The position numbers were made by a program, and so were the translations under genes. A stretch of 33,382 bases of DNA, taken from assembly GCA_013152325.1 (NCBI GenBank), contig JAADGN010000143.1, forward strand, positions 1 to 33,382, read 5' to 3'. This DNA comes from Chloroflexota bacterium. GTDB taxonomy: Bacteria; Chloroflexota; Anaerolineae; Anaerolineales; Villigracilaceae. Shown here one piece after another: positions 1,577 through 33,189 of the stretch. How positions within the stretch are numbered: position 1 is the first letter of the stretch; each line of letters begins with the position of its first letter. The notes beneath the pieces were generated by a model, which saw only the letters and a list, made by a program, of their open reading frames with translations, was not told the origin of the DNA and did no database searches.

Positions 1577-1579
1577 CTG

Positions 1580-3076
1580 TCAATGGGGCGTCTGGAAATA
1601 CGTTCCAACGATGTCGGAGAAATCCGCGTCGGTATGCTGGCGCAGGATACGGAAAAAATCGTCCGGTGTGGCAATTCGTCCGCTTTCCCGGGAGAGATAA
1701 TCCTGCAAAAAGGCGAAGAAAGCCTCATCGCCGATGCGCTGACGCAGGTCTTCCAAAAAGTGTGCGCCGCGCAGATAGACCGCGTCCGTGTAGGGGCGGA
1801 AGCCGCCGCCCTCGTAGACCGGGATGTCCACCCAGCCTTCGGGCTGGTAGAAATCCACACGGTAGGCCCACCACCAGGGGATCAGCGCCGGGTCGAGCTC
1901 CTCGTAAAAGATGTGCTCGCTGTAGGTCGCCAGCGACTCGTCCAGCCAGGGTTCGAGCGCCTGGTCGTTGGCAACCTGTTCGAACCACCACTGGTGGGAC
2001 GTCTCGTGCACAGCGACGAAGGTCAGGTAATTTTGGGGCGTGCCGTCGTACAGATTGTAAAAATCACGCGGCAGGAAGTAAAAGGCCGAGTATTCCATGC
2101 CATCGTTGAAGTCGCCCTGCACCGCGCTGAGCGTTTTGTGAGGGTAGGCCCCAAAAGCCCGTTCATACGCCTGCACCGCCCGGATGCTGGCCTGCAGCAC
2201 GGCCCGGGCAGGTTTTTCGTTTAGAGGCAGATAATAACTGAAGACGGTCACCTCGCCGACCGTCCCGCTGACGACCTGGAACTCCGGGCTGGCCGAAAGA
2301 GCAAAGGTGCGCCCTTTTTCGAGGGTGTAGCGCGTCCATTCGCCGCTGGATTCGACGAATCCGCTTGCCGCGACGACCGGCGCCGAATCAGGGTCGGCAA
2401 AGCGCAGGTTGACCTCGTAATCCGCGGCCTCGTAGACCAGGTGCTCGCCGTAATACCAGGGATCGTGCAATATCCAGCCCGCCCCCGCTTCATACGGGAC
2501 GATGAACGGATACCAATTCGTCAGGTTGATCTGGCGAGTGCTGTATCCAAAGATGCGCGGCCGCTGGAGGTTGGGGTCGGTGGGCGCGATCTCAGGCAGG
2601 GACAGGCTGTATTTCAGCGCGAGGGTCAGCGTCGCACCGGCCGGGAGCGGTTGGGGCAAGTCGACCGTCAGCCGCTGGCTGTCCAGCGTGTACGCGCCGA
2701 CGGGCGTATCATCGATTTCCAGTTCAGACAGCGAGAAACAATTTACCCACAGGTTCGGCTCGACCGCCAGAACAAGGTCATTCAGCGCCTCGCCGCTGTG
2801 GTTGGGATAGCGAATGGTCTGCTCCACATCCACGAATTTGCGGGCATAGTCAAGGGTCACGGTGAGGGTATATTGGGCGCGCTCCAGAGGGACGAGGGTG
2901 GGAGAAGGAGCCGGAACGGGCGTTGCAGTCCGAGCGGGGATGCCATCACCCCCGGCACTGCCTTCCGTAGGAGAAGGAAGGTCCGGCGCAGGAGTTGGCG
3001 TCTCACCGGGCGCTGGAGACGAACAACCAGACAAAAGCGTCAACAACAGGATGGCAAAAACGATGATACGCTTCAT
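1580..3076 (-). CDS. M1-like zinc metallopeptidase lipoprotein
   Basis: This 498-residue predicted lipoprotein starts MKRIIVFAILLLTLLSGCSS, a lipobox with Cys at about residue 18, then a Pro/Thr/Gly-rich linker to about residue 65. A beta-rich M1 N-terminal domain and a catalytic domain follow. The catalytic signature is HETSHQWW, with His357, Glu358, His361 and Glu380 (HExxH-x18-E); GMEY replaces the usual GAMEN exopeptidase motif. It is shorter than classical aminopeptidase N and lacks the large C-terminal helical domain. The start at 3076 was preferred over an ATG at 3112, because the longer version would place the start inside the terminator hairpin of the preceding operon and add a non-signal prefix. 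It is the first gene of a tandem duplicated pair. Whether it acts as an aminopeptidase or an endopeptidase cannot be told from sequence. Confidence 0.88.
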   Translation of the reverse strand: MKRIIVFAILLLTLLSGCSSPAPGETPTPAPDLPSPTEGSAGGDGIPARTATPVPAPSPTLVPLERAQYTLTVTLDYARKFVDVEQTIRYPNHSGEALNDLVLAVEPNLWVNCFSLSELEIDDTPVGAYTLDSQRLTVDLPQPLPAGATLTLALKYSLSLPEIAPTDPNLQRPRIFGYSTRQINLTNWYPFIVPYEAGAGWILHDPWYYGEHLVYEAADYEVNLRFADPDSAPVVAASGFVESSGEWTRYTLEKGRTFALSASPEFQVVSGTVGEVTVFSYYLPLNEKPARAVLQASIRAVQAYERAFGAYPHKTLSAVQGDFNDGMEYSAFYFLPRDFYNLYDGTPQNYLTFVAVHETSHQWWFEQVANDQALEPWLDESLATYSEHIFYEELDPALIPWWWAYRVDFYQPEGWVDIPVYEGGGFRPYTDAVYLRGAHFLEDLRQRIGDEAFFAFLQDYLSRESGRIATPDDFFRILRQHTDADFSDIVGTYFQTPH

Positions 3077-3095
3077 ACGCTGAATTTTACCCGCA

Positions 3096-3130
3096 AAAAC
3101 AATCTCCCGCATGTTTGGAACCTGCGGGAG
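3096..3130 (-). terminator. Rho-independent terminator of the metal-uptake operon
   Basis: On the minus strand a 7-bp perfect stem (CTCCCGC at 3130-3124, GCGGGAG at 3110-3104) with a 13-nt loop is followed by ATTGTTTTTG. It lies just past the permease stop at 3138 and before the first M1-like peptidase gene, so it separates the two transcription units. Confidence 0.7.
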
Positions 3131-3137
3131 GCCGGGG

Positions 3138-3989
3138 TCATTGTCTCACACGCTGCCGCAGCATCTTTCCTCCCCACACCAGCCCAAAGACCGCCGTGGC
3201 AATCAGCACGATGGCGGCGCCGGAGGCAATGCCCAGATAGTACGAGAGATACAACCCCACCACGCCCGAAAAAGACGCGATCGACGCGGCCAACGCCATC
3301 ATGATCGGCAGACGTTTGGTCAACAGGTAGGCCGTCGCAGCCGGCGTGACCAGCATGGCGACCATCAGCGCCACGCCAACCGTCTGCATCGAGACCGCGA
3401 TCGTGATCGCGATCAGCACCAGCAGCAGGTAGTGCAGCAGGTTTCCGGGCAGGCGCAGCGTGGAGGCCAGGATCGGGTCGAAGGAGAGCACCAGGAATTC
3501 CTTGTAAAAGGTCAAAATGGTGAGCAGCACCAGCGCGGTGAAGATGCCGGTCAGCCACAGGTCGCTGGTCGAGACGCCCAGCACGTCCCCAAAGAGGAAG
3601 TGCGTCAGGTCCACCGAGTAACTGCGTACAGTCGAGATCAAGGCGATGCCCAGCGCAAACATCCCGGCAAAAACAATGCCAATGGCCGTATCTTCCTTGA
3701 CCTTGCCGCTCTTGCCGATGGCCCCAATGCCCAACGAGGCCAGGATGGCCGTCCCCAGGCTCCACCAGAAAAGATCGCCGCGCGCCGCACCGCCCCCCAC
3801 CAGATAGCCCAGCGCCACACCCGGCAGGACGGCATGCGCCAGCGCATCGCCAAAAAAAGCCATGCCGCGCAGCACGATATACGTCCCAACCGTGGCGCAG
3901 ACAATGCCAACCAGCAAAGCCGCGATCAGGCCGCGCACCATGAAGGCGTACGAAAGCGGCTGCAAAAGAAAATCTGCCAGGCTACTCAT
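3138..3989 (-). CDS. Metal ABC transporter permease, ABC-3 family (ZnuB/MntB-like)
   Basis: This is a 283-residue polytopic inner-membrane protein with about eight hydrophobic segments and the ABC-3 hallmark text near the N-terminus (GTYIVLRGMAFFGDALAHAV). Family members form the channel for zinc, manganese or iron taken from a lipoprotein receptor. The chosen ATG at 3989 overlaps the ATPase stop as ATGAGTAG and has AAGGAG nine bases upstream. An ATG at 3998 sits directly against that ribosome site and is less likely; longer versions would run deep into the ATPase gene. It is the last gene of the operon. The permease itself cannot distinguish zinc from manganese; the Fur-family regulator and three-His receptor favour zinc. 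Confidence 0.9.
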   Translation of the reverse strand: MSSLADFLLQPLSYAFMVRGLIAALLVGIVCATVGTYIVLRGMAFFGDALAHAVLPGVALGYLVGGGAARGDLFWWSLGTAILASLGIGAIGKSGKVKEDTAIGIVFAGMFALGIALISTVRSYSVDLTHFLFGDVLGVSTSDLWLTGIFTALVLLTILTFYKEFLVLSFDPILASTLRLPGNLLHYLLLVLIAITIAVSMQTVGVALMVAMLVTPAATAYLLTKRLPIMMALAASIASFSGVVGLYLSYYLGIASGAAIVLIATAVFGLVWGGKMLRQRVRQ

Positions 3990-4821
3990 CGGCGCCATCT
4001 CCTTCGCCACAACAGGTATCCCCCACGGCAATGATGCCCTGTTCCCCCTCGACAAAATGCAGATGGCTGCCATACGCGTGCATCAGAATCTCCGGCTCGA
4101 AAACCTGCTCCGGCGCGCCGAAGCCGAGCAAGCGCCGGTTGAGCAGCATGACGCGGTCAAAATGCTCGGCGGCCTGACCCAGGTCATGCGTGGCGACCAT
4201 CACCGTCACCCGCTCCTGGCGCAAATCATCCAGGATGCGAAAAATATCCTTCTGCGAAGGGACATCCAGGCCGGTCAGCGGTTCGTCCATCAGCACGAGA
4301 TGAGCCTCTTGGGCCAGCGCACGGGCGATGAACATGCGCTGTTGTTGGCCGCCGGAGAGTTCACTGATCTGCCGCTGCGACAGGTCGGCCATGCCGACCA
4401 CCTCCAGGCTCCGCCGGACGATATTCCAGTCTTGCGCCTTGGGCCAGCGCAGCGGCCCCAGCTTGCCAACACGCCCCATCATGACCACGTCGGCTACACT
4501 GACCGGGAAAGACCAGTCCACCTGGCTGCGCTGGGGCACGTAGGCGATACAGATATGTCCGCTGGGCCGGTCGCCCGCGATGTTCACCTGTCCGCTCAAC
4601 GGCACCAGGATACCCGCAATGACCTTGAACAGGGTGCTCTTCCCGGCCCCATTCGGTCCAATCACGGCCACCCGCTCGCCCGTGTGCAGGTGGAACGTCA
4701 CGTCGTCCAACGCCAGGTGGCCATCATAGCCCGCGCTCAAATGGGAAACGTCCAGTACCGGAGCGCCCTCGGCGTGAACCGCACTCCCGTAAGTGCTGTG
4801 TTTGGATGAAGATGAACTCAT
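3982..4821 (-). CDS. Metal ABC transporter ATP-binding protein (ZnuC/MntA-like)
   Basis: This 279-residue cytoplasmic ATPase energises the adjacent permease. The Walker A motif GPNGAGKST lies near residue 60, the Q-loop at AYVPQRSQVDW, the ABC signature LSGGQQQRMFIARAL near residue 155, Walker B LVLMDEP, the D-loop LTGLDVPSQ, and the switch His in VATHDLGQA. The first roughly 25 residues (Ser-rich) precede the ABC fold and may be an extension or a slightly early start. It starts 26 bases after the binding-protein stop and overlaps the permease start, typical of a translationally coupled uptake operon. Sequence and order fit the zinc/manganese/iron chelate-independent class. Confidence 0.92.
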   Translation of the reverse strand: MSSSSSKHSTYGSAVHAEGAPVLDVSHLSAGYDGHLALDDVTFHLHTGERVAVIGPNGAGKSTLFKVIAGILVPLSGQVNIAGDRPSGHICIAYVPQRSQVDWSFPVSVADVVMMGRVGKLGPLRWPKAQDWNIVRRSLEVVGMADLSQRQISELSGGQQQRMFIARALAQEAHLVLMDEPLTGLDVPSQKDIFRILDDLRQERVTVMVATHDLGQAAEHFDRVMLLNRRLLGFGAPEQVFEPEILMHAYGSHLHFVEGEQGIIAVGDTCCGEGDGADE

Positions 4822-4847
4822 TGTTCGTTCTTTCGCTGCACAAATCC

Positions 4848-5783
4848 CTATTTCAACGCCTCGACAATCGCCGAAACATTGTAGTCCATAAAGTTCAGGT
4901 ACGTGTCCGCCGGGCCGTCCGCCGCGCTCAGTGAGCCGGTATAGATCGGCACCAGTTTCACGCCCGTATCCTCGGCCACCCGCTCCGCCAGCGCAGGATT
5001 AACCGTCTTGCCCGTCAGCACAGCCCTGACGCCGTATTCCCGGATGGCATCCTCGATGGCGGCCAGTTCCTGCGCGGAGGGCGTCGAGCCGGTGCTGAAG
5101 CCGGGGATGATCGCGCCGACCTGCTCAAACCCGTACCGCTCGGCGAAGTAGCCAAAGACCATGTGATCGGTGACCAGTTTGCGATTCTCGGCAGGGATTT
5201 GCGCCACCTGTTCTCGAATCCAGGAGTCCAGTTCCTGCAATTGGGACTCATACGCGGCCGCGTTGGCCGCATACTGCCCGGCGTGGGCGGGATCCGCCGC
5301 GCTCAACGCCTGGGCGACGTTCTCCGTCCAGACGAGGACGTTGTTCGGGTCCATCCAGACATGCGGGTCGGCTCCCGTTTCATGGGCCTGCCCTTCGCCC
5401 CCGGCCATTCCCGTCAATCCCCGCGCCGTGACCCCATCCGAAACCCGGACAACGAGCGCCTGGCTGCCGGCATTATCCAGCAGCGGCTCCAGAAACTCCT
5501 CCAGACCCAGACCGCTGGCAAAGATGACTTGCGCATCCGCCACGGCAGCCACATCCTGCGGACGGGGGTCAAAGGTATGCGGGTCCGTGCCAACAGGCAG
5601 CAGCACTGTCAGGTCCACAAGATCGCCTGCCACCTGACGCACCACGTCGCCGACGATGGTCGTCGTTGCGACCACGCGCAGCCTGCCATCGTCGGTCTCC
5701 GCGGACGAGGGAGCACAACCCGTCAAAGCCGTCATCAAGAGCGGGATCAAAAATAAAACTGTTGCATACCTACGAAACGTCAC
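4848..5783 (-). CDS. Metal-binding ABC receptor lipoprotein (ZnuA/TroA/MntC family)
   Basis: This 311-residue lipoprotein has signal peptide and lipobox LTGC (Cys23). The TroA-type fold shows the three conserved histidine ligands in DPHTFDP (His69), ADPHVWMDP (His141) and TDHMVFGYFAERYG (His207). The fourth ligand, Asp in a TDS motif in manganese receptors, appears replaced by Gly in IYTGSL near residue 283. That leaves a three-His site closer to zinc receptors. The His/Asp-rich loop between the first two ligands is very short (GEGQAHETG). Its start overlaps the end of the regulator gene by 14 bases, and it is followed by the ATPase. Zinc is favoured, manganese not excluded. Confidence 0.9.
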   Translation of the reverse strand: MTFRRYATVLFLIPLLMTALTGCAPSSAETDDGRLRVVATTTIVGDVVRQVAGDLVDLTVLLPVGTDPHTFDPRPQDVAAVADAQVIFASGLGLEEFLEPLLDNAGSQALVVRVSDGVTARGLTGMAGGEGQAHETGADPHVWMDPNNVLVWTENVAQALSAADPAHAGQYAANAAAYESQLQELDSWIREQVAQIPAENRKLVTDHMVFGYFAERYGFEQVGAIIPGFSTGSTPSAQELAAIEDAIREYGVRAVLTGKTVNPALAERVAEDTGVKLVPIYTGSLSAADGPADTYLNFMDYNVSAIVEALK

Positions 5784-6213
5784 GATTCACCTCTGGTTGA
5801 CACTTGGCGCATAGGCCGAACAATTGCAGCCAATGTTCCCGAACGACAAAACCATGTTCGTCGCCAACCCGCGCAAAGAGCGCGGTCAGGTCGTCGCCGT
5901 CAAAATAGACCGCCCGTCCACAGCGCTGACAAATGAGCAGGTGCTGATGTCCCTGCGCATGGGGAAGATAGGCATTGCAGCCCTGCTCCTGATGGACGCG
6001 CTGGATCAAGCCGAGTTCCTCCAGTTTTTCGAGCGTGCGGTAGACGGTAACCAATCCCAAGGCAGGATAGGCCGTCCGCGCCGCGTCATAGACTTCGACC
6101 GGCGTCAGGGCGCGCGCACTGGAGGCAACGACCTGCACCACAGCACGCCGCGCGCCGGTCAGCCGGTACCCGTGGGCTTTGAGTTGGGTGAGCCAATCTT
6201 GACTCTCAGCCAT
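5770..6213 (-). CDS. Fur-family metalloregulator, probably Zur
   Basis: This 147-residue protein has an N-terminal winged helix (residues about 10-85, with TPVEVYDAARTAYPALGLVTVYRTLEKL) and a C-terminal dimerisation and metal domain. The domain contains HAQGHQHLLICQRCG and a final CAKC, so both CxxC pairs of the structural zinc site are present, plus the clustered histidines of the sensor site. The start at 6213 has GAGGTGAG close upstream. The gene leads the metal-uptake operon and overlaps the binding-protein gene by 14 bases. A Fur-type palindrome sits at the predicted transcription start. Autorepression together with the transporter when metal is sufficient is therefore the likely mode. 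Zur is preferred over Mur or Fur from the transporter class; the sensed metal is inference. Confidence 0.88.
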   Translation of the reverse strand: MAESQDWLTQLKAHGYRLTGARRAVVQVVASSARALTPVEVYDAARTAYPALGLVTVYRTLEKLEELGLIQRVHQEQGCNAYLPHAQGHQHLLICQRCGRAVYFDGDDLTALFARVGDEHGFVVREHWLQLFGLCAKCQPEVNRDVS

Positions 6214-6235
6214 ATCTCACCTCGGTAAACGATAA

Positions 6236-6250
6236 TGAAAATCGTTTTCA
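6236..6250. promoter_or_regulatory. Fur/Zur-type operator
   Basis: TGAAAATCGTTTTCA is a 7-1-7 palindrome with six of seven pairs matched. It agrees with the classical Fur-family box (TGATAAT, N, ATTATCA) at 11 of 14 positions. It lies immediately downstream of the -10 box of the regulator-transporter operon, over the predicted start of transcription, where bound repressor would block initiation. Confidence 0.75.
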
Positions 6251-6278
6251 ATTATAAGCAAAAAGGGAGAAACGTCAA
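6251..6278 (-). promoter_or_regulatory. Sigma-70-like promoter of the metal-uptake operon
   Basis: On the minus strand TTGACG (6278-6273), a 16-bp spacer and a perfect TATAAT (6256-6251) precede the regulator gene by about 40 bases. The operator at 6236-6250 abuts the -10 box. Confidence 0.75.
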
Positions 6279-6286
6279 GGGATTCC

Positions 6287-6382
6287 AAAAGTGTCACTGC
6301 GAAGCGCGTTTTCCGCGGCGAAGCAGTCCCCAAGGCAGCCCGGGAGATTGCTTCGCACATTCGGGCTCGCAGCGACACTTTT
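6287..6382. repeat. Palindromic dispersed-repeat-like element
   Basis: The 16-base ends are inverted copies with one mismatch (AAAAGTGTCACTGCGA at 6287-6302, TCGCAGCGACACTTTT at 6367-6382). Inside, a second inverted pair GCGAAGCA and TGCTTCGC is visible. The whole could fold into one long cruciform of about 96 bases. It fills the gap between the metal operon promoter and the methyltransferase 3' end, and has no coding potential of its own. Confidence 0.65.
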
Positions 6383-6408
6383 CGTTTTTATTCACAACTC
6401 AGGCTGCG

Positions 6409-7026
6409 TTACTTTTTTCCTTTGGCAAAACGTACCAGCCCCGGTCCCATCCTGGTCACGCTCCCTGTGAGATGCAGGCCGGCGGCGGTAAAGAGTGCGC
6501 GCAAATCATCCTCGCTCCAGCGATGATGACGTTCAGCACGCGCCGCATAGTTGAGCAGTGTTTCGCGCGCCAAGCCCGTCAGACCGCGCGCCTCGGCCAG
6601 GGCAGCCGCGGCGGATACGCTCATCCGCTCGGATGGGTTGAGGACGGCCACCTCCCCGCCCTCACGCAGCAAACGCGTCATCCCGGTCAGCGCGGCAGGG
6701 GGATCGGGGAGCAGGAAAAGCAGGTTGGAGGCGGTTATCAGGTCGAAAGTTGAAGGTCGAAAGGGCAAAGACAACGCGTCGGCGAGGACCAAATTTCGAT
6801 GAAGGGCATCGCGGAACATCCCGGGGGCGGCGTCCACGCCCAGGGCGCGGCAGCCAACGCGGGTCAGGAGCGCGGGGAGCAGCCCTGGGCCGGTGCCCAC
6901 GTCCAGGGCGCGGCAGCCCGGCGGAGGGGCGATCCATGCCGCGAAGCGTTCCAGCATCCGCCCCCAGCCGGTCTGGGTCTGGAGTTCAAGAAAGTAGCCA
7001 GGGTCGGCGCGCATGGGCAGGGTCAT
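6409..7026 (-). CDS. Class I SAM-dependent methyltransferase
   Basis: This 205-residue protein has the SAM-binding motif I ALDVGTGPG near residue 43. Motif II-like GVDAAPGM follows, then DALSLPF and a post-motif FDLITASNLLFLLPDP, in the Methyltransf_11/UbiE-like pattern. The substrate is not evident. The start ATG at 7026 shares ATGA with the stop of the upstream gene, so the two are translationally coupled; upstream ATGs in the same frame would lie inside that gene. It is the last gene of a two-gene unit. Confidence 0.85.
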   Translation of the reverse strand: MTLPMRADPGYFLELQTQTGWGRMLERFAAWIAPPPGCRALDVGTGPGLLPALLTRVGCRALGVDAAPGMFRDALHRNLVLADALSLPFRPSTFDLITASNLLFLLPDPPAALTGMTRLLREGGEVAVLNPSERMSVSAAAALAEARGLTGLARETLLNYAARAERHHRWSEDDLRALFTAAGLHLTGSVTRMGPGLVRFAKGKK

Positions 7027-9611: not shown

Positions 9612-10379
9612 CTACCGGCTGTTCAGTTCCCAGATAATGCGCAGACCATCGAGGGTCAGCCAGGGAGCAATGACCTGAACGACGTCTGTCTCGCGGGCGA
9701 TGACCTCCGCCAACCCGCCCGTCGCGACAACCTTCATCTCCGGGCCAAGTTCGGCGCGGAAGCGGGAGACCATCCCTTCGACCATGGCGACATAGCCGAA
9801 CAACAGGCCGGATTGCATGGCATGGACGGTATTCCTGCCAATCACGGAAGGCGGGCGAGCGATGCTCACCGGCGGCAGTTTGGCGGCATGTTGGAAGAGG
9901 GCTGCCGCGGCCAGATTGATGCCAGCCGTGATCGCGCCCCCCAGGTATTCGCCTTCAGCAGTGATGGCGTTGAAGGTGGTCGCGGTGCCGAAGTCCACCA
10001 CGCAGGCCGGGCCGCCGTAGAGATGCAGCACCGCGACCGCGTCCGCGACGCGGTCTGCGCCGACGGCGTGCGGATCGTCATAGAGGATGCGGACGCCGGT
10101 CTTGATGCCCACGTCCACCACCAGCGGGTCAATGTGAAGATATTGCTTGCAGGCCTGGACAACGCGTTCGGTCAGATTCGGGACGACCGAAGCCAGGCAG
10201 ATGCCGGTCAGGCAGTCCATGCCGCGATTGGCTTGCTGCAGCAAGCCGAGAAATTGCAGGCCGTATTCATCGGGCATGCGTGCGTGGTCCGTCGCCAGCC
10301 GCCAGTGCGAACCAAGCGTCTCGCCATCGTACAGGCCGAGGGTCAGGTTGGTGTTGCCGACATCAATCGCCAAAAGCAT
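9612..10379 (-). CDS. coaX: Type III pantothenate kinase
   Basis: This 255-residue protein has the hallmarks of CoaX: LLAIDVGNTNLTLGLYDGE at the N-terminus (phosphate loop of the ASKHA fold), GADRVADAVA near residue 105, and ACVVDFGTATTFNAI near residue 125. It phosphorylates pantothenate in the first committed step of coenzyme A synthesis, in the cytoplasm. It follows panD by 94 bases on the same strand, and panD follows metH by five. The three may therefore share transcripts, with two CoA-pathway genes placed together. Confidence 0.95.
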   Translation of the reverse strand: MLLAIDVGNTNLTLGLYDGETLGSHWRLATDHARMPDEYGLQFLGLLQQANRGMDCLTGICLASVVPNLTERVVQACKQYLHIDPLVVDVGIKTGVRILYDDPHAVGADRVADAVAVLHLYGGPACVVDFGTATTFNAITAEGEYLGGAITAGINLAAAALFQHAAKLPPVSIARPPSVIGRNTVHAMQSGLLFGYVAMVEGMVSRFRAELGPEMKVVATGGLAEVIARETDVVQVIAPWLTLDGLRIIWELNSR

Positions 10380-10473: not shown

Positions 10474-10854
10474 TCAGTTATGGGAATTCTCCCCAGCCCC
10501 TCGGATTTCACGAATGCGGTTGGCGTCATCCAGCAGGACAATCGTCGGCGACCACGCTTCCGGCAGCGGTTCGGGAACGAGGGCGTAGGTCATGATGATG
10601 ACATGGTCGCCCGGATTGAGCAGCCGCGCCGCCGCGCCGTTCGCCCGGATCACGCCCGATCCGGCCGGCCCGGCAATCGTATACGTCTCCAAACGGGCGC
10701 CGTTCTCCACGTCAACGACCTGCACCAACTCGAATTCGCGGATGCCTGCGGCATCCAAAAGCGCCGCGTCCACGGTAAGGCTGCCCTCATAGTGCAGGTC
10801 CGCATCCGTGACGACAGCCCGATGGATTTTGGCTTTCAACAACTTTCGATACAT
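10474..10854 (-). CDS. panD: Aspartate 1-decarboxylase precursor
   Basis: This 126-residue protein has the PanD self-cleavage site Gly24-Ser25 in YEGSLTVD; Ser25 becomes the pyruvoyl group. Conserved [16 protein letters not shown] precedes it, and [20 protein letters not shown] follows. The enzyme makes beta-alanine for pantothenate. Length matches the family. AAAGGA lies eight bases before the ATG, and the gene begins five bases after metH, so it is expected to be co-transcribed and perhaps coupled to it. The pyruvoyl enzyme is followed by coaX of the same pathway. Confidence 0.95.
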
Positions 10855-10859
10855 CGAAA

Positions 10860-13800
10860 TTATCCTTTCATCAACTGCTCCACGCGACTCTCGCCCACGC
10901 TAAAGTATTTGGCCTGTGGATGATGCACCACGATCGCGGCGGTAGATTGTTCGGGGACGAACTGGTAAGCTGCCGTCAGGGACATACCCAATTCACTTTC
11001 GGCGGGGAGCAAATCGAAGACGATGCGATGGTCTTTCAACTCAGGGATGGCCGGATAGCCCCACGAGTAACGTTTTCCCTGCCCTGCAGGGATACCCAGT
11101 TCGCGGCAGATGTGACGGTGCAGGTATTCGGCGGTCGCTTCGGCGGTCTGGACGGCCAGTCCGTGCACGAAGTAGGCTTCGGAGTAATCGCCCTTCGCCT
11201 GGAGCGCATCAAATTTCTCTGTGGCCTGCTGCCCCACCGTCACCACCTGAAAAGCGACCACGTCCATCTGCCCCGAGCCGACGGGGGCAAAGTAGTCTGC
11301 CAAACACAGGTTGTCGCCGGAGGGCTGGCGGGGGAAGGAAAAACGGGCCAGCGGTTCGGGAGAATCAGCGATGGTCTCAGGATTATAGACGACAAGCTCA
11401 TTCCCGTCGGATTGGCAGGGCCAGAATCCGTACACACCCTGGGGTTTGAGCCAACCATCTCGCAGGGCCTCCTTCTGCATGCGCGCCAGGCGTTTTTCGA
11501 ATTCGGCCTGCATTTTCTCCCACTCTTCGCCATGGGTGTTCTTGGCTCCCCACGAAAGGCGGAAAAGTTCCTTTTTGTAGAGGTGCTGGAAGACGATCTC
11601 CAGGGGCATTTCCCTGACGAGACGCGGGCCCCACTGATCCGGGAGTTTGATCGGCGCGGGGACAATATTCGAACGCAAACCTTTGGGGCGTTTCGACGTT
11701 TTAGCGTTCGAGCGTTTGGCCTCCCGTGTGGCTTCCGAGAGAACACTCTCCAGGAGAGGCAAACGCTTTTCCGGATCGGTCAACGCTTCCATCGTCTCCA
11801 GCCCTTCAAACGCATCCTTGCAATAAAAGACACCCGGCGCATAATGCTGACCATCCTCCGTGAAAAGCATGCGGCGGCCAAAACGACGGTTGATGGCCGC
11901 TCCGCCCACCAGCACAGGGAAGTTCAGGCCGCGGCGGTGCAGTTCATTGACGATAAGCGGCATTTGCTTGCTGGTGCTGACCAGCAGCGCGCTCAGGCCA
12001 ATCGCGTCGGCATCCTGCTCGACCGCCGCGTTGATGATGGTCTCCGCGGGAACTTGTTTGCCGAGGTCGATCACCTCGTAGCCATTATTGCTCAAGATGG
12101 TCTTGACCAGGTTCTTGCCGATATCATGTACGTCGCCGTAGACGGTGGCCAGCACCAGGCGTCCCTTGCTGGTGCCCTCCTCGCGTTCCAAATACTGTTC
12201 CAGGTGGGCGACGGCCTTCTTCATCACCTCGGCGGATTGCAGCACGAAGGGCAGGATCAGCTCACCCGCGCCGAATTTTTCGCCGACTTCTTTCATGGCG
12301 GGGAGCAGGACATTGTTGAGGGTGTAAATGGCGGCGGCGTGTTTTGTGCCCTCATTCCCCCCCCTTCCCCCAGGGGGAGAAAGGTCAGGACGAGGGGCCA
12401 AACCGAGAATGACCTCATCAACATCATCCTCCACGCTCGACGAATCCCCAACCTGTGCAGGCTGACGATGCACAATACGCCAGTGCAGGCGCTCTTCGAC
12501 GGTCATGCCGGCAGTGGGATCGACCTGATGCGTCGAAGCCGTTGCATCGCGGCCATCGAAATATTGAATGACACGTTCCAGCGCGTCCGGGCGGCGGTTG
12601 AAGATCAGGTCTTCGGCCAGTTCGCGCTCGTTTTCAGGGATTTCGGCGTAGGGCGTGATCTGCGCCGGATTGACAATTGCCATATCCAGGCCGGCCTGAA
12701 CGCAGTGATACAGGAAAACGCTGTTGAGCACCGGCCGGGCAGCCTTGCTCAGTCCAAACGAGACGTTGCTCACTCCCAGCGAGGTGAAGACGCCCGGCAG
12801 CCCGGCCTTGATGCGCTTGATGCCATCCAAAGTTTCCTTTGCCGAATCAACGTACTCGGCCTCGCCTGTCGCGAGGGTGAACGTCAGCGCGTCGAAAACC
12901 AGATCCCCGGCTTGCAGGCCGTGTTCATCCACCGCCATGTCGCGCAGACGTTTGGCGATCTCCACCTTGCGCGCGGCGGTCTTCGCCATTCCCTTTTCAT
13001 CAATCGTCAGCACCAGCACAGCCGCGTTGTACTTCTTCGCCAACGCAAAGACATGGTCAGCTTTCTCGCGCCCGCTCTCAAGGTGCGTGGAATTGAGCAG
13101 GCATCGTCCCGGTGCGGCCTTGAGTCCGACTTCCATCACGTCCGGGTCGGTCGTGTCAAAGACCAGCGGTACGTCAATGCCCGCCGTGACCAGTTTGCGC
13201 ACCACCAGGCGCATCAGTTCAGCTTCGTCCTGCCGCTCGGTGACAGCCACGGAAATATCGAGCGCGTGCGCGCCGTTGTCCACCTGATGACGGGCGACTT
13301 CGAGGATCGCGTCCCAGTCTTCGGCCAGCAGCAGACGTTTGAATTTGCGGCTGCCCTGGGCATTGCAGCGCTCGCCGATCAGCAGCGGCGGCGGCTCCTG
13401 GTGCATGGTGAAGGCGCGAATGCCGGAAGCCAGCCGGGGGATATCCAGAACCGGGCGCGGCGGGCGTTTCTTCCCGTGAATTTTCTCCACCAGTTTTGCA
13501 AGATGCGCGGGGGTCGTGCCGCAGCAGCCGCCGACCACGCTGATGTCGTACTTTTCCACGAATTCGGCCAGGGCTTCGGCGAAGGGTTCCGGCTCGAGGG
13601 GGTAGACGGCTTCGCCGTCCACGTTGAGCGGCAGCCCGGCGTTCGGGATGCAGGAGACCGGAAGGGGAGCGTGCTCGCCCAGGAACTCGATCGGCTGGCG
13701 CATGTGTTCGGGGCCGGTCGAACAGTTCAGCCCAATGACGTCGATCGGCAGCCCTTCCAGAATGGTCAGCGCGGCGGCGATGTCGGTTCCGAAGAGCATC

Positions 13801-14426
13801 CGTCCGGTCGTATCGAGCGTGACCTGGGCCTGGATCGGCAGGTAGACGCCGGTCTCTTCAAAGGCTTTTTGGATGCCGGTAATGGCGGCCTTGACTTCAA
13901 GGATGTCTTGGGAGGTTTCGAGGAGCAGCACGTCCACGCCGCCCTCGAGAAGACCGGCGGCCTGCTCACGGAAGATGTCGGCGAGTTCGTCGAAGTCGAC
14001 ATCCGAGAGATCGGGGTCGGCGGCGGAGGGCAGCTTGCCGGTCGGGCCGATAGAGCCGGCGACGAAGCGCGGCTGCCCGGGCGTGCTGAACTCATCGGCC
14101 AGTTTGCGCGCCAGCGCAGCGGCCGCCCGGTTGATCTCGATCACCCGGTCCTGCAGGCCGTATTCGCCCAGCGTCAGTCGGTTGGAGCGAAAGGTGTCGG
14201 TCTCGAGCACGTCCACGCCGACTTCGAGGAAGGAGCGATGGACATTTTCCACGGCTTCGGGATGCGAGATGACCAGGTAATCGTTGCAGCCGTTATATTG
14301 CTCACCGCCAAAATGTTCGGCGGTCAGGTTTTGGTCTTGGAGGCTGGTGCCCATGGCGCCGTCGAAAATGAGAACACGTTCGTCGAGGGCGTCGAGGTAC
14401 GAGCGGTTGGTGTATTTGCGGGTCAT
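10860..14426 (-). CDS. metH: Cobalamin-dependent methionine synthase
   Basis: This 1188-residue protein carries all four MetH modules. The homocysteine-binding barrel has zinc cysteines Cys235 (GLNCSTGP) and Cys301-Cys302 (GGCCGTTP). The methyltetrahydrofolate (pterin-binding) domain covers about 335-600 ([15 protein letters not shown]). A helical cap and the cobalamin domain follow, with His767 in DVHDIGKN as the lower cobalt ligand. The reactivation domain is C-terminal, with SAM-binding [12 protein letters not shown]. It methylates homocysteine with methyl-tetrahydrofolate. Residues about 676-692 of the linker before the cap are Pro/Gly-rich and encoded by a palindromic G/C-rich repeat. 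A SAM-I riboswitch lies upstream, but a transposase unit separates the two. Downstream panD starts after five bases. The long ORF on the opposite strand is a shadow. Confidence 0.97.
12349..12399. repeat. G/C-rich palindromic repeat inside metH
   Basis: On the metH strand this reads CTTTCTCCCCCTGGGGGAAG inside a longer run of C and G. It is a palindrome of a type often seen between genes rather than within them. It is translated in frame as part of a Pro/Gly/Arg linker ([16 protein letters not shown]). A related string, CCCCCAAGGGGGAAAGGGTG, occurs in the noncoding tail at 33101-33120. Confidence 0.5.
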
Positions 14427-14460
14427 GTAATCTCCATAAATAACTTTGGATAAGTACGGT

Positions 14461-14524
14461 GCGGGCTAAAGCCCTGCCTCAACTCATGGAAGTCCGCTGA
14501 AGCGGACTCGGCCGTTCAGCCCGC
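14461..14524. repeat. Dispersed hairpin repeat, family 3, copy 1
   Basis: Reads GCGGGCTAAAGCCCTGCCTC, then AAGTCCGCTGAAGCGGACTC and ends CAGCCCGC. It matches 29471-29533 in layout and in its unpaired segments, while the paired stems differ compensatorily (GGGCT/AGCCC versus GGACT/AGTCC; AGTCCGC/GCGGACT versus AGTCGGC/GCCGACT). It lies between the transposase unit and metH. Confidence 0.7.
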
Positions 14525-14568
14525 AGGGCTTCCATGTACTGAGCAGGGGATTTATCCCCGGCGGATAC
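14519..14568. repeat. REP repeat, copy 1
   Basis: This 50-base repeat is identical to 15021-15070. It holds two hairpins, GCCC-GCA-GGGC at its start and GGGGAT-TT-ATCCCC at 14546-14559, followed by GGCGGATAC. A double-hairpin layout is typical of REP substrates of Y1 transposases. Confidence 0.85.
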
Positions 14569-14577
14569 GGATTGTTC

Positions 14578-14988
14578 TCATTCACCATCTATTCTCTCAT
14601 AAACCGCAACCATCGTTTCTTCACGATGATGTTCTTTTTGATTGGCAGCATAAGCCACCGCTCTCTCCAAATTTCGCTCGCTGACACTCAAGGCACCGTA
14701 ACCAGCCTGCCATTTGAATTGGCCTTCGCGCTCATCCATTTTGTTGATGGCATACGCGCTTGCCCCTTTCAGGTGACGGACACAGTCGGCTACAGACAAT
14801 TTTGGCGGGATAGAGACGACGACATGAACATGATCGTCCACATTCCCCGCGGCGTGAATTTTTAGGCCCAGTTCTTTGGCCTTGCCATATAGCACACCAT
14901 ACAAGACCTTTTCTCGCTCAGCCGTCAACACCGGCTGACGATCCAGAGTTGCCCAAATGATGTGGTAGTGGAGTCGCCAATAAGTCAT
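14578..14988 (-). CDS. REP-associated Y1 transposase (IS200-like HUH)
   Basis: This 136-residue single-domain Y1 transposase starts MTYWRLHYHIIWATLDRQPV. The HUH metal motif is His53-Val-His55 in DDHVHVVVSIP, the catalytic tyrosine is Tyr113 in YAANQ (Y-x3-Q, Gln117), and the helix RHLKGASAYAINKM is conserved. It cuts and joins single-stranded DNA at hairpins. The same frame stays open upstream to 15222, but that extension would be translated from the riboswitch terminator and repeat, so the internal ATG at 14988 is used. It is oriented like metH and would be read by any transcript escaping the riboswitch. Confidence 0.88.
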   Translation of the reverse strand: MTYWRLHYHIIWATLDRQPVLTAEREKVLYGVLYGKAKELGLKIHAAGNVDDHVHVVVSIPPKLSVADCVRHLKGASAYAINKMDEREGQFKWQAGYGALSVSERNLERAVAYAANQKEHHREETMVAVYERIDGE

Positions 14989-15020
14989 GGTCGTTTTCCA
15001 TATTTTCTTCGGCGCGGGCT

Positions 15021-15070
15021 GCCCGCAGGGCTTCCATGTACTGAGCAGGGGATTTATCCCCGGCGGATAC
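15021..15070. repeat. REP repeat, copy 2
   Basis: Identical, base for base, to 14519-14568 and in the same orientation. It ends seven bases before the T-run of the riboswitch terminator. Confidence 0.85.
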
Positions 15071-15077
15071 TTCTCGC

Positions 15078-15106
15078 AAAAAACGCCTCTCTGAAATAGA
15101 GAGGCG
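15078..15106 (-). terminator. Intrinsic terminator of the SAM-I riboswitch
   Basis: On the minus strand a perfect 9-bp stem CGCCTCTCT-ATTTC-AGAGAGGCG (15106-15084) is followed by TTTTTT (15083-15078). The 5' arm could instead pair with AGAGAGGC of the aptamer's 5' side (15267-15260), giving a mutually exclusive antiterminator. Confidence 0.85.
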
Positions 15107-15127
15107 CCACGTTCATGCATGTCATCT

Positions 15128-15274
15128 CTCATCTTCCAGACAATTCGTCTGCCGGAGTTGGCACCTTTCTCAGTGATCGGCTGTCGGTTGTACCTGACCA
15201 CCGATTGCTGATGACCGTTCACTGGAAGGTTGCCGAGGCGTCACAGGGCCGGTCCCTCTGCCTCTCTGGATGAG
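15128..15274 (-). ncRNA. SAM-I (S-box) riboswitch aptamer
   Basis: The minus strand reads P1 CTCATC (15274-15269), then the conserved core AGAGAGGCAGAGGGACCGGC, CCTGTGACGCCTCGGCAACC, a P3 arm, AAGGTGCCAACTCCGGCAGA and closing P1 GATGAG (15133-15128). These are the invariant blocks of the S-box aptamer. When SAM binds, P1 is stabilised, which should favour the downstream terminator and switch expression off. The expected target is metH, first methionine gene downstream, now reached only through the transposase unit. Confidence 0.93.
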
Positions 15275-15303
15275 TGTGATTCTATCCTAACTTGTTGGGC
15301 GCG

Positions 15304-15332
15304 AGTTTACCATATCGGACAGGGACTGTCAA
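15304..15332 (-). promoter_or_regulatory. Sigma-70-like promoter of the riboswitch leader
   Basis: On the minus strand TTGACA (15332-15327), a 17-bp spacer and TAAACT (15309-15304) lie about 30 bases before the riboswitch P1. It is divergent from the plus-strand promoter at 15346-15375, with 13 bases between the two -35 boxes. Confidence 0.75.
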
Positions 15333-15345
15333 TTTTGTCTCCGGC

Positions 15346-15375
15346 TTGACATCAAGGAGGAGGCTGTGCTACACT
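15346..15375 (+). promoter_or_regulatory. Promoter of the tungstate/molybdate regulator-transporter operon
   Basis: TTGACA (15346-15351), an 18-bp spacer and TACACT (15370-15375) predict transcription from about 15382, which excludes the upstream ATG at 15366 and supports the ATG at 15405. Confidence 0.65.
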
Positions 15376-15383
15376 CGCAGCAA

Positions 15384-15399
15384 TTAAGTTTTTTCTTAA
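15384..15399. promoter_or_regulatory. Candidate operator at the transcription start
   Basis: An inverted repeat TTAAG-TTTTTT-CTTAA covers the predicted start of the regulator-led operon. It could be the binding site of the HTH regulator encoded just downstream. No other copy was noticed, so this is tentative. Confidence 0.35.
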
Positions 15400-15404
15400 C
15401 CGCG

Positions 15405-16379
15405 ATGAAAAGAATCAGACGTCTGCATACCTTCGAACAGATCAAATTGCTGGCCGACCCGCGTCGGATGCAGGTGCTGCGTCTTTTAATGGGCGCCCCC
15501 GCCACGCTGACGCAGTTGGCCGGTAAGCTCGGTCAGTCTCCGGCCTGGGTCCGTCATCACGTCCGCAAACTCGAAGAGGCAGGCTTGATCGAATTGGCCG
15601 AGATCCGCACGAAAGGCACGGTCACCGAAAAATACTATCGGGCAAAATCCGCGGCTTTGCTGCTGCAGGAATTGATCCTGCCGGAAAGCGACCGCCCAAC
15701 CCTGGTGTTCTCCGGCAGTCACGACATGGCCGTCGAAGCCCTCGCGGAGGCTGTGGCGCCGTACATGGACGTCCTCATCCATCCAATCGGTTCGCTGGAC
15801 GGGTTGGTGAATCTCCGCCAGGGAATCTGTCACTTGAGCGGCATTCACCTGTTGGATACCAGCGGAGAATACAACACTCCCTTTGTACAGCGCTTCTTCC
15901 CCGACCGCGCAGTACGCCTGATCACCGTGGCCCACCGTGTACAGGGACTGATGACCGCGCCGGGCAACCCGAAGAATATCCGTTCGATCCAGGAGTTGCT
16001 TCGAACGGATATCCGGCTGGCGAACCGCAACCCCGGTTCGGGAACCCGGCTGTGGCTGGATGCGGAACTCGGGCAATTAGGGGTTTCGGGGACCCACATC
16101 AACGGGTACGATCAGGTGGTGGCCACCCACACAGCCGCTGCGGAATTAGTGGCCGGCAACCAGGCCGACGTAGCCCTCGGTTTGCAGGCCGCCGCAGCGC
16201 AGCAGCAATTGCACTTCCAGCCCCTGTTCGAGGAACGGTATGACCTTGTTCTTCCCGAAGACTTGGTCAACACCCTCGCTCCCCTGCTGGACCATCTGAC
16301 CAGCGCGGCATTCCGGCAAAGCGCACAAGCCCTGACAGGCTACAACACCGCGCTCAGCGGTACGACGATCACACTATAG
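15405..16379 (+). CDS. One-component regulator: ArsR-like HTH fused to periplasmic-binding-like domain
   Basis: This is a 324-residue cytoplasmic protein. Residues about 1-85 form a winged helix of ArsR type (FEQIKLLADPRRMQVLRLLM, then TLTQLAGKLGQSPAWVRHHVRKLEEAGLI). Residues about 100-320 resemble the periplasmic-binding-like domain found with molybdate regulators and MoeA-type proteins (NRNPGSGTRLWLD, THTAAAELVAGNQADVALGL, FEERYDLVLP). It probably senses an oxyanion such as tungstate or molybdate directly. It leads the transporter operon and ends eight bases before the binding protein, so it likely controls its own uptake system. The start at 15405 follows from the promoter. No good ribosome site is seen and the leader is only about 22 bases. 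Confidence 0.82.
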   Translation: MKRIRRLHTFEQIKLLADPRRMQVLRLLMGAPATLTQLAGKLGQSPAWVRHHVRKLEEAGLIELAEIRTKGTVTEKYYRAKSAALLLQELILPESDRPTLVFSGSHDMAVEALAEAVAPYMDVLIHPIGSLDGLVNLRQGICHLSGIHLLDTSGEYNTPFVQRFFPDRAVRLITVAHRVQGLMTAPGNPKNIRSIQELLRTDIRLANRNPGSGTRLWLDAELGQLGVSGTHINGYDQVVATHTAAAELVAGNQADVALGLQAAAAQQQLHFQPLFEERYDLVLPEDLVNTLAPLLDHLTSAAFRQSAQALTGYNTALSGTTITL

Positions 16380-16387
16380 GAGTTCCC

Positions 16388-17200
16388 ATGAAACGTATAC
16401 TGACCCTGCTATTGATCTTTCCCCTGCTGCTGACCGCTTGCGGCAATCTGATAGAAGACAACGTCATCATCCTGGCGACCACGACCAGCACCCAGGATTC
16501 AGGTCTGCTGGACGTCCTCATCCCGATCTTTGAAACCGAGAACGGGTACACGGTCAAGACCATCGCCGTCGGGACCGGCAAGGCCCTGTCGATGGGCGAG
16601 AACGGGGACGCCGACGTCCTGCTCGTCCACGCGCCGGACGCCGAAATGGCGGTCATGGAGTCCGGGTCCGGTCTGGACCGGTTCCTGGTCATGCACAACG
16701 ACTTCGTGATCGTCGGCCCCGCGTCCGATCCCGCCAACCTGCGTGGAATGACGAGCGCCTCCGCAGCCTTTATCCGGATCGCCGAGTCATCCGCGCCCTT
16801 CGTCTCACGCGGCGACGATTCCGGCACCGACAAAAAGGAGCGCGCCATCTGGGAAAGCGTCGGGGTGACGCCCGCCTGGGACGGCTATATCGAAAGCGGG
16901 CAGGGCATGGGCGCGACCCTGCTGGTCGCCTCCGAAAAATCGGCCTACACCCTGACAGACCGCGCCACCTACCTGGCCTATCAAGACAAGGTTGCGCTCG
17001 ATATCATGGTCGAAGGCGACGAGGTCTTCATGAACATTTACCACGTCATCACGATCAACCCCGAAAAATGGCCGGAGGTCAATTACAAAGGCGCCCTGGC
17101 CTTTGCCAACTTCCTGGTCGCGCCGTCAACCCAGGGGATCATCAGCACCTTCGGCGTGGACGAGTACGGCCAACCGCTCTTTTTCCCCGACGCCGAATAA
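16388..17200 (+). CDS. tupA: Tungstate-type ABC substrate-binding lipoprotein
   Basis: This 270-residue protein has lipobox LLLTAC (Cys18). The mature start, VIILATTTSTQDSGLLDVLI, is the TupA signature (TTTSTQDSGL), an oxyanion-contacting loop. Further family text is GTGKALSMGENGDADVLLVHAP, FVSRGDDSGTDKKE and GQGMGATLLVASEKSAYTLTDR. TupA proteins bind tungstate with high affinity; some relatives take molybdate. TAGGAG stands six bases before the ATG. It follows its regulator and precedes permease and ATPase genes, completing a transporter. Confidence 0.9.
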   Translation: MKRILTLLLIFPLLLTACGNLIEDNVIILATTTSTQDSGLLDVLIPIFETENGYTVKTIAVGTGKALSMGENGDADVLLVHAPDAEMAVMESGSGLDRFLVMHNDFVIVGPASDPANLRGMTSASAAFIRIAESSAPFVSRGDDSGTDKKERAIWESVGVTPAWDGYIESGQGMGATLLVASEKSAYTLTDRATYLAYQDKVALDIMVEGDEVFMNIYHVITINPEKWPEVNYKGALAFANFLVAPSTQGIISTFGVDEYGQPLFFPDAE

Positions 17201-17263
17201 TCCGACCCCCTCGCATTCGCAGGAGCGATTGGTCAGCCGCCCCCGCGAATGTCCTGACAGCCG

Positions 17264-17911
17264 ATGAACCCCGAAATCTTCCAGATCACCGTCCTCTCCC
17301 TGCAAGTCTCCGGCCTGGCGACCGGCATCAGTCTGCTGCTCGGCCTGCCGCTGGGCACATGGCTGGCGCTGGGCCATTTCCGCGGACGGAAACTGCTGCT
17401 CAGCCTGGTCAACACCGGCATGGCCCTGCCGCCGGTCGTGGTCGGGCTGGTCGTCTCGCTGACCTTGTGGCGCAGCGGTCCGCTCGGCAGTTTGCGGCTG
17501 ATCTACACCCCGGCGGCCATCGTCACCGCCCAGACCATCATCGCCGCCCCGGTCGTGACCGGCCTGACCGCCGCCGCCCTGCAGGCCCTCGACCCGCGTC
17601 TGGCATTGCAGCTGCGCGGGCTGGGCGCGTCGCGCTGGCAGGTCACGCTGGCCCTGTGGCGTGAAGCCCGCCTGCCGCTGCTGGCGGCGCTGATGGCCGG
17701 CTTCGGCTCGGTCATTTCGGAGGTGGGCGCTTCGATGATGGTCGGCGGCAACATCCGCGGCCAGACCCGCGTGCTGACGACCGCCATCGTGCTCGAGACC
17801 GGCAAAGGCAACTTCGACATCGCCATCGCGCTCAGCATCCTGCTGCTGGCCCTGGCGCTGCTGGTCAACCTCGGCCTGACCTGGATCCAGCAGCGGGAGG
17901 GGCGGACATGA
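17264..17911 (+). CDS. tupB: Tungstate-type ABC transporter permease
   Basis: This 215-residue inner-membrane protein has about five hydrophobic segments. The binding-protein-dependent permease EAA-loop region is ALDPRLALQLRGLGASRWQV, where GA-x-R-W is the ATPase contact. GSVISEVGASMMVGGNIRGQTRVLTTAI, the characteristic block of TupB/ModB-like permeases, lies near the C-terminus. It begins 63 bases after tupA without a strong ribosome site, and its stop overlaps the ATPase start as ATGA. Confidence 0.88.
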   Translation: MNPEIFQITVLSLQVSGLATGISLLLGLPLGTWLALGHFRGRKLLLSLVNTGMALPPVVVGLVVSLTLWRSGPLGSLRLIYTPAAIVTAQTIIAAPVVTGLTAAALQALDPRLALQLRGLGASRWQVTLALWREARLPLLAALMAGFGSVISEVGASMMVGGNIRGQTRVLTTAIVLETGKGNFDIAIALSILLLALALLVNLGLTWIQQREGRT

Positions 17912-18975
17912 CCCCGATCCTGCGTGTGGAAGACCTGCACGTCAAAGACATCCTGTCCGTCCCCCGGCTGGATGTCCGGCGCGGCGAGGTGCTGACGGTC
18001 GTCGGGCCGAACGGGGCGGGCAAAAGCACCCTGCTGCTGACCCTGGCCGGGCTGCTGCGTCCCGAGGCCGGGCAGGTCTGGTTCGACGGCGCGCCGCTCG
18101 ATTTCGGCCGCAACCTGTCCTACCGCCGCCGGATCGGACTGGTGATGCAGGCCCCGCTCCTGCAGGACATCAGCGTATTCGACAATGTGGCCGCCGGGCT
18201 GCGCTTCCGCGGCGCGGCGGAGGCGGACGTCCGGCGCATCGTGCCGCAGTGGCTGGAGCGGCTGGACATTGCCCATCTCAGCCGGCGCGGACCGCGCAAA
18301 CTCTCCGGCGGCGAGGCCCAGCGCGTCAGCCTGGCCCGCGCCCTGGCCGTGACGCCCGACCTGCTGCTGCTCGACGAACCCTTCAGCGCCCTGGACGCGC
18401 CCACCCGCGCCCACCTGATCGGCGACCTGCAATCCCTGCTGGCCGAGACCGGCATCACCACGGTTTTCATCACCCACGACCTGGATGAAGCCCTGCAACT
18501 GGGCGACCGCATGACCGTGCTGATCGACGGCCAGGTACGGCAGATCGCCGCGCCCGAAGACATCTTCGCCGCGCCCGCCGACGCGGACGTGGCCGCTTTC
18601 GTCGGGGTGGAGACGGTCGTCCCGGGTACGGTCAGCAGGTCCGGGTCCGGGATGGTGCTGGTGCAGGTCAAGGATCAGGAACTGGAAGCCGTCAGGGAAC
18701 TGGATGTCGGCCGGGAGGTGCTGTTCTGCGTCCGGCCCGAAGATGTCACCCTGCACAGCAAAAAGCGGACGCCCGGTTCCAGCGCCCGCAACTGCCTGTC
18801 AGGGGTTATCCGGCAGATCGTCCCACAGGGCGCGCTGATGCGGGTCACGCTCGATTGCAGCTTCCCGCTGACAGCGCTGGTCACCCGGGCTTCCGCCCGC
18901 GAGATGGGCCTGGCCGAGGGACGGACCGTCCAGGCCTCGTTCAAAGCCAGCGCGGTCCACCTGATCCCCCGTTAA
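17908..18975 (+). CDS. tupC: Tungstate-type ABC transporter ATP-binding protein with TOBE-like domain
   Basis: This 355-residue ATPase has Walker A GPNGAGKST near residue 32, signature LSGGEAQRVSLARAL near 132, Walker B LLLLDEP, D-loop FSALDAPTR and switch His in ITHDLDEAL. Residues about 230-350 form a C-terminal regulatory region of TOBE type (VLFCVRPEDVTLHS, PLTALVTRASAREMGLAEG), which in molybdate relatives can bind the oxyanion and inhibit uptake. GGAGGGG precedes the ATG inside tupB. It is the last gene of the operon; a 13-bp hairpin follows. Confidence 0.88.
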   Translation: MTPILRVEDLHVKDILSVPRLDVRRGEVLTVVGPNGAGKSTLLLTLAGLLRPEAGQVWFDGAPLDFGRNLSYRRRIGLVMQAPLLQDISVFDNVAAGLRFRGAAEADVRRIVPQWLERLDIAHLSRRGPRKLSGGEAQRVSLARALAVTPDLLLLDEPFSALDAPTRAHLIGDLQSLLAETGITTVFITHDLDEALQLGDRMTVLIDGQVRQIAAPEDIFAAPADADVAAFVGVETVVPGTVSRSGSGMVLVQVKDQELEAVRELDVGREVLFCVRPEDVTLHSKKRTPGSSARNCLSGVIRQIVPQGALMRVTLDCSFPLTALVTRASAREMGLAEGRTVQASFKASAVHLIPR

Positions 18976-29387: not shown

Positions 29388-29431
29388 CTTATTCCAGCCA
29401 CCGGACACTTTTGGGCGACAAGCCTCTGTGG

Positions 29432-29456
29432 TGTCCGACAGTTGAACTGTCGGACA
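29432..29456. repeat. Perfect palindrome repeat, family 4, copy 1
   Basis: Arms TGTCCGACAGTT and AACTGTCGGACA around a single G make a perfect 12-1-12 palindrome. Near copies occur at 32997-33019 and 33359-33379. Confidence 0.8.
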
Positions 29457-29470
29457 TCGCCAGCCATTCG

Positions 29471-29533
29471 GCGGACTAAAGTCCGGCCTCAGATCATAAA
29501 AGTCGGCTGAAGCCGACTCCCTGGTCAGCCCGC
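29471..29533. repeat. Dispersed hairpin repeat, family 3, copy 2
   Basis: Reads GCGGACTAAAGTCCGGCCTC, then AAGTCGGCTGAAGCCGACTC, ending CAGCCCGC. It has the same layout as 14461-14524, with stem changes that keep pairing. The whole 29291-29607 gap is made of such repeats and holds no gene. Confidence 0.7.
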
Positions 29534-29607
29534 ACCGGTGGTCAAGAAAAACCACAAGCCTGGGCATCTACCAGCAAACTGTCAGGTGGCTAGTGTCTAT
29601 TCTACTC

Positions 29608-32976: not shown

Positions 32977-32996
32977 AAGATTATCTCTCTGGCGAT

Positions 32997-33019
32997 GTCC
33001 GACAGTTGCACTGTCGGAC
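32997..33019. repeat. Palindrome repeat, family 4, copy 2
   Basis: Arms GTCCGACAGT and ACTGTCGGAC around TGC, matching 29432-29456 except for the centre. The surrounding 32903-33382 contains no credible gene: it is made of hairpins and repeats. Confidence 0.8.
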
Positions 33020-33189
33020 GCCACAGGAAACGACTGCTGGAGCTTTCCCATCGCGGACAACTCCTGAGCAAAGCGGCCAATGGAAGTGCGGTCGCATCGC
33101 CCCCAAGGGGGAAAGGGTGGGTCATGCAATCGCCGCGCTTCGACTGCGACGACGCTGTCGCTTCGTCTCCGCTCAGCGACTGGATTATG

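Follow-up and report, generated by a model that had tools for sequence, protein, structure and literature searches.

A switch-over of the GAGAG/CTCTC kind is the usual antiterminator logic of the S box, or SAM-I riboswitch (RF00162). The transposases that come closest to the one considered here belong to the TnpAY1 group. Quentin et al. (2018) described TnpAY1 subclass 1.2 by the motifs DH[IV]H, WQ and Y---Q--HH, with the signature YIKNQKEHH, and reported it without REPs, mostly in Cyanobacteria and Bacteroidetes (PMC6006769). RAYTs (TnpAREP, TnpAY1 class 2) are recognized instead by a Y---NP catalytic motif (PMC6006769). A further mark of RAYT genes is that the REPs at their flanks stand in inverted orientation. 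In the REPtron (Nunvar 2010, PMC2817692), a single RAYT gene lies between genome-scattered palindromes and is associated with BIMEs, and a study of REPs infers that transposases of such a kind are expressed by read-through from upstream (PMC3733652). In the literature searched, which covered few subscription journals, no paper was found that places a SAM riboswitch upstream of a transposase or a REP unit.

Such an arrangement is present on the minus strand of the window, a stretch of 33,382 nucleotides from a member of the Villigracilaceae (Chloroflexota, Anaerolineales). A sigma-70-type leader promoter (15304-15332; TTGACA-17-TAAACT, with TG before the -10 and 10/12 matches) is the sole promoter-like site that a sigma-70 consensus scan found on the minus strand between 14300 and 15500. 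It is followed by an aptamer (15126-15276) that matches RF00162 over its full length and well above the cut-off of the covariance model (84.8 bits, with the gathering score at 44.4, E = 6.6e-19). The intrinsic terminator (15078-15108) has an 11-pair stem (15108-15082, -17.8 kcal/mol) and a T6 run, and in the predicted antiterminator (15099-15130) the GAGAG of the P1 3' strand (15130-15126) pairs with the CTCTC of the terminator 5' arm (15103-15099). Folding of growing transcripts predicts that the antiterminator is present in the nascent chain until the terminator 3' arm has been made. By folding, with relatives also examined, the region has the make-up of a SAM-I expression platform, a terminator with a competing antiterminator.

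Downstream of the terminator lie a palindromic repeat (15021-15070), which is the outer half of a BIME-like unit, and the remnant of a lost inner palindrome (15010-15020, AGCCCGCGCCG), recognized by comparison with 22 orthologous units. These are followed by a gene for a Y1 HUH transposase of 136 amino acids (14578-14988), by a second repeat that forms the first half of the right unit (14519-14568) and by its inverted partner palindrome (14457-14518); 14461-14553 matches the genome-wide unit. Then come metH, encoding cobalamin-dependent methionine synthase with all five expected MetH Pfam domains (10860-14426), panD, encoding aspartate decarboxylase (10474-10854; PF02261, 1.1e-45), and coaX, encoding type III pantothenate kinase (9612-10379; PF03309, 9.5e-73). 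The order of these parts on one strand, and the roughly 650 bases from the end of the terminator to the metH ATG, had been given in a preliminary description of this DNA and are borne out by the coordinates. On the plus strand, a divergent HTH/PBP-like regulator (15366-16379) adjoins the switch and serves as a marker of the locus, since it does so in two related loci (L161 and L183) too; it shares 15366-18975 with an ABC transporter resembling those for tungstate or molybdate uptake.

The aptamer, terminator and antiterminator are those of an ordinary SAM-I switch before metH, which in 25 relatives stands directly before the gene. The difference lies in the transposase gene and the two palindromic units that separate terminator and metH here. 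Each component is known in kind, and the combination is, as far as tested, a new variant.

The transposase matches the Pfam family Y1_Tnp (PF01797, E = 1.8e-25) and passes the NCBIfam IS200 model (84 bits, cut-off 55); among proteins of solved structure, those nearest to it in sequence are IS200-type transposases, e.g., 2xm3. An IS200/IS605 insertion sequence would be expected in multiple near-identical copies, but the gene is single copy in the window’s genome, and close paralogues are lacking. Orthologues with 67-79% identity occur in 27 others among 150 genomes of the family, the next class being at 50% or less, and at 65% identity or above they are essentially single copy. The low copy number, the short protein and the motifs DHVH, WQ and YAANQKEHH are all those of TnpAY1 subclass 1.2. 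The preliminary description had spoken of a REP-transposase; the association with repeats stands, but the protein itself falls outside the RAYTs, having YAANQKEHH instead of Y---NP and scoring 29.4 bits with the NCBIfam REP_Tyr_transpos model, whose cut-off is 80. Unlike the reported members of subclass 1.2, the protein is found in Chloroflexota and its gene is flanked by dispersed palindromic units. As far as tested, a REP-bearing TnpAY1 subclass 1.2 in Chloroflexota is a new variant, which extends REP-type repeats to this subclass and phylum. Close pairs of the gene have a dN/dS of about 0.05-0.08 (distant pairs are saturated and uninformative), and by this measure selection on the protein is purifying.

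The 50-nt repeats at 15070-15021 and 14568-14519 are 100% identical. Each forms part of a two-palindrome unit, whose palindromes face each other as inverted copies; the units on either side of the gene are direct repeats of each other, except that the left one has lost its inner half, of which 15020-15010 remains. Of the 23 transposase units inspected, nearly all have a two-palindrome unit on both sides of the gene; L170 on the right, L185 on the left and some reduced units, the window’s left one among them, are exceptions. At least about 25 related units are dispersed in the window’s genome, but within the intervals scanned units are nearly confined to those that carry the gene: intervals lacking it gave three matches in 51 kb, and the 214 kb scanned downstream of metH gave no match. 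Among the 150 family genomes, those bearing an orthologue have more units (median 7 versus 1, Mann-Whitney p = 9e-9, or 7e-4 after discounting the two own copies; the genomes are related and the p-values are thus generous). Flanking repeats that are also dispersed without the transposase were our working mark of a REPtron and are present here, as are the single transposase between scattered palindromes and the link to BIMEs. In contrast to the REPtron (PMC2817692), the protein is not of class 2 and lacks Y---NP, the flanks are directly repeated palindrome pairs, and no GTAG foot was seen. Further copies of the genome-wide unit, or of an associated hairpin, lie at 29396-29534 and 32989-33027 of the window.

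For comparison, we retrieved 80 metH loci from relatives and screened them with a covariance model made for this analysis. The distance between aptamer and metH ranges from overlap up to 2.8 kb. The window, the switch-bearing loci among the eighty and those found via the transposase make up 60 intervals, of which 25 are direct, with the switch immediately before metH, 28 have other genes or sequence in between and 7 contain the transposase. The preliminary description had suggested looking in relatives for an uninterrupted version; with 25 of the 60 intervals of this kind, the unit does separate what is likely an ancestral switch–metH pair. On the metH tree, the direct type prevails among the deep branches, and one clade holds most of the interposed cases, so that a switch directly before metH is likely to be the ancestral state. 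The interposed genes follow a loosely fixed order: YdeI-like, SnoaL, GNAT, an unnamed family, DinB, DUF5946, the transposase, a membrane protein and metH. The first has no Pfam match, and we take it to be YdeI-like. Arrays of this sort, in loosely conserved order and also including YoeB/YefM-like genes, are seen in the loci from L020 to L092. One locus, L025, has tandem SAM-I switches, at 1398-1493 before interposed SnoaL and GNAT genes and at 2490-2585 nearer metH.

A hairpin with a T run follows the aptamer in 58 of the 60 intervals and in 35 of the 35 that are not direct; the terminators of these 35 (28 interposed, 7 with the transposase) all lie 27-51 nt past the aptamer. The switch is therefore not decaying behind its passengers. 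A switch that served passengers only would be expected to decay, and the retention of the terminator argues that the whole operon, including metH, is still gated. Thus, a riboswitch keeps its form in dozens of genomes while unrelated genes, among them a transposase, accumulate before its target, and the interposed intervals provide a natural test of how far riboswitch control reaches.

The most probable reading, which we hold with fair confidence, is that the SAM-I switch heads tnpA-metH-panD-coaX as a termination-type control and that the transposase unit, made up of a single-copy subclass 1.2 gene with a BIME-like unit on each side, is a tolerated passenger. With SAM plentiful, the aptamer would be closed, the terminator formed and all four genes off. 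When SAM is scarce, P1 would open, its GAGAG would pair with the terminator 5' arm, and the antiterminated polymerase would continue across the palindromic units and the transposase gene, so that metH is made. Transposase and metH would then probably share one SAM-sensitive transcript; read-through, co-transcription and the response to SAM in vivo are the parts of this scheme that we infer. The operon could tolerate the passenger because the interval appears to have no terminator: the scan for intrinsic terminators on the minus strand between tnpA and metH found none, although it overlooked the S-box terminator too, and the hairpins read by eye there all lack a following T run. In relatives this interval takes other small genes, and control of the transposase by SAM would probably be a by-product of where the gene lies. 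The preliminary description had the switch cut off from metH and had suggested that it either still works through the insertion or has been replaced for metH by a new promoter within the repeats. With the terminator kept in 35 of 35 non-direct switches and the insert having three weak matches to the sigma-70 consensus against 2.6 expected by chance, read-through control of metH is the better reading.

The opposite case, that metH is uncoupled and transcribed from a promoter of its own, located within or beyond the right palindromic unit, while the switch governs only the transposase, seems unlikely to us, given these promoter counts and the intact switches and terminators of the 7 transposase-bearing and 28 other interposed loci. 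It does draw on the distance and the strong hairpins, which could cut read-through: the gap holding the right unit folds strongly (-53.9 kcal/mol), and this folding, as modelled, could make the polymerase pause or lead to decay or Rho-dependent loss ahead of metH. It also draws on the genus. Two genus mates without the transposase unit at metH (G002 and G003) have no SAM-I switch before metH and must drive the gene otherwise, so another way of driving metH is available in the genus. Relatives that lack both the unit and a metH switch had been named beforehand as evidence against an interrupted switch; they are not what the order as a whole displays, but these two genus mates are of that kind. 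The window’s genome has three SAM-I switches, before metK (L003), before a gene for a PLP enzyme (L004; named as trans-sulfuration type from sequence) and before metH. A lone SAM-I switch, that of metK, is present in seven of the eight genus mates, as read from the downstream gene in six and from a metK match in the seventh; the metH switch is thus missing from the genus mates examined and retained in the window’s species.

The arrangement recurs. At least six other genomes have an orthologue between switch and metH (L161, L169, L172, L174, L183 and L184), which makes seven with the present one, and each of the seven carries the transposase on the same strand as metH. Among the 80 metH loci, a sample unselected for the transposase, the gene was found three times, always between switch and metH. 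That SAM control covers the transposase, as had been claimed, is likely from the position of the gene downstream of this switch, but it is not general, since about 20 of the 27 family orthologues sit outside a switch–metH interval. Only one riboswitch was found by 21 such other neighbourhoods, so that the gene is not generally placed behind switches. That one is a glycine switch at L185 (oriented copy, 1101-6414), where a gcvH-gcvPA-gcvPB operon and a YdeI-like gene are followed by the orthologous transposase, about 4.8 kb downstream of the switch and on the same strand. A riboswitch-gated HUH transposase is in any case open to direct testing.

A single origin of the seven metH-locus transposases is rejected by the AU test (p = 0.0017, or 0.010 with two genus mates added), which requires at least two arrivals or moves out. 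On the phylogenetic evidence, there are at least two separate histories, that of the window’s genus and that of the interposed clade. The window’s protein groups with those of the genus mates G004 and G006 (support 94/86). In G006, the transposase is followed by a small TSP3-type gene, and the same TSP3-type gene precedes metH in G002 and G003. The contig ends suggest that the G006 orthologue is also upstream of metH, with an insertion element in between; contigs C146 and C33 have no joining end overlap, and their linkage is drawn from shared sequence and the insertion-element ends. What reads as a C-terminal remnant of DUF5946 lies in the right flank of L161, L169, L184 and L042, the last being a unit without a transposase gene, and these remnants together with the gene-less unit fit an insertion made long ago at the DUF5946 end and followed by loss.

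These histories bear on a further alternative, namely that a mobile element was inserted recently and neutrally, without lasting regulatory meaning, and that the arrangement will be lost. The 100% identity of the repeats over 50 nt would agree with this, as would the presence of orthologues at many other places in relatives. Moreover, 13 of 25 units have flanking direct duplications that exceed the 95% control score, which speaks for mobility at some time. These are duplications of about 13-120 bp of a neighbouring gene’s end, often abutting the palindromes, as at L160, L162, L163, L165, L166, L170, L172, L178, L185 and others; we know of no target duplication for IS200-type insertion. At the window’s own unit, however, no target duplication was found (the flank score of 18 equals the control median), the left unit is decayed, the reading frame is under purifying selection, and the related G006 orthologue apparently lies upstream of metH too. 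The identity of the repeats may itself stem from gene conversion, and we regard a recent neutral insertion as quite unlikely.

A more speculative extension is that the switch–metH interval is a SAM-gated landing site that collects small unrelated genes in conserved order, and that a REP-associated subclass 1.2 transposase, made chiefly at low SAM, helps to shuffle the array. We consider this very unlikely; if true, transposase activity would be tied to methylation status or methionine starvation. Another insertion element is probably represented by the ends CTAGCCACCAGACA and TGTCTGGTGGCTAG, which occur at the end of L128, at the start of L176 and in the flanks of L007 and L008.
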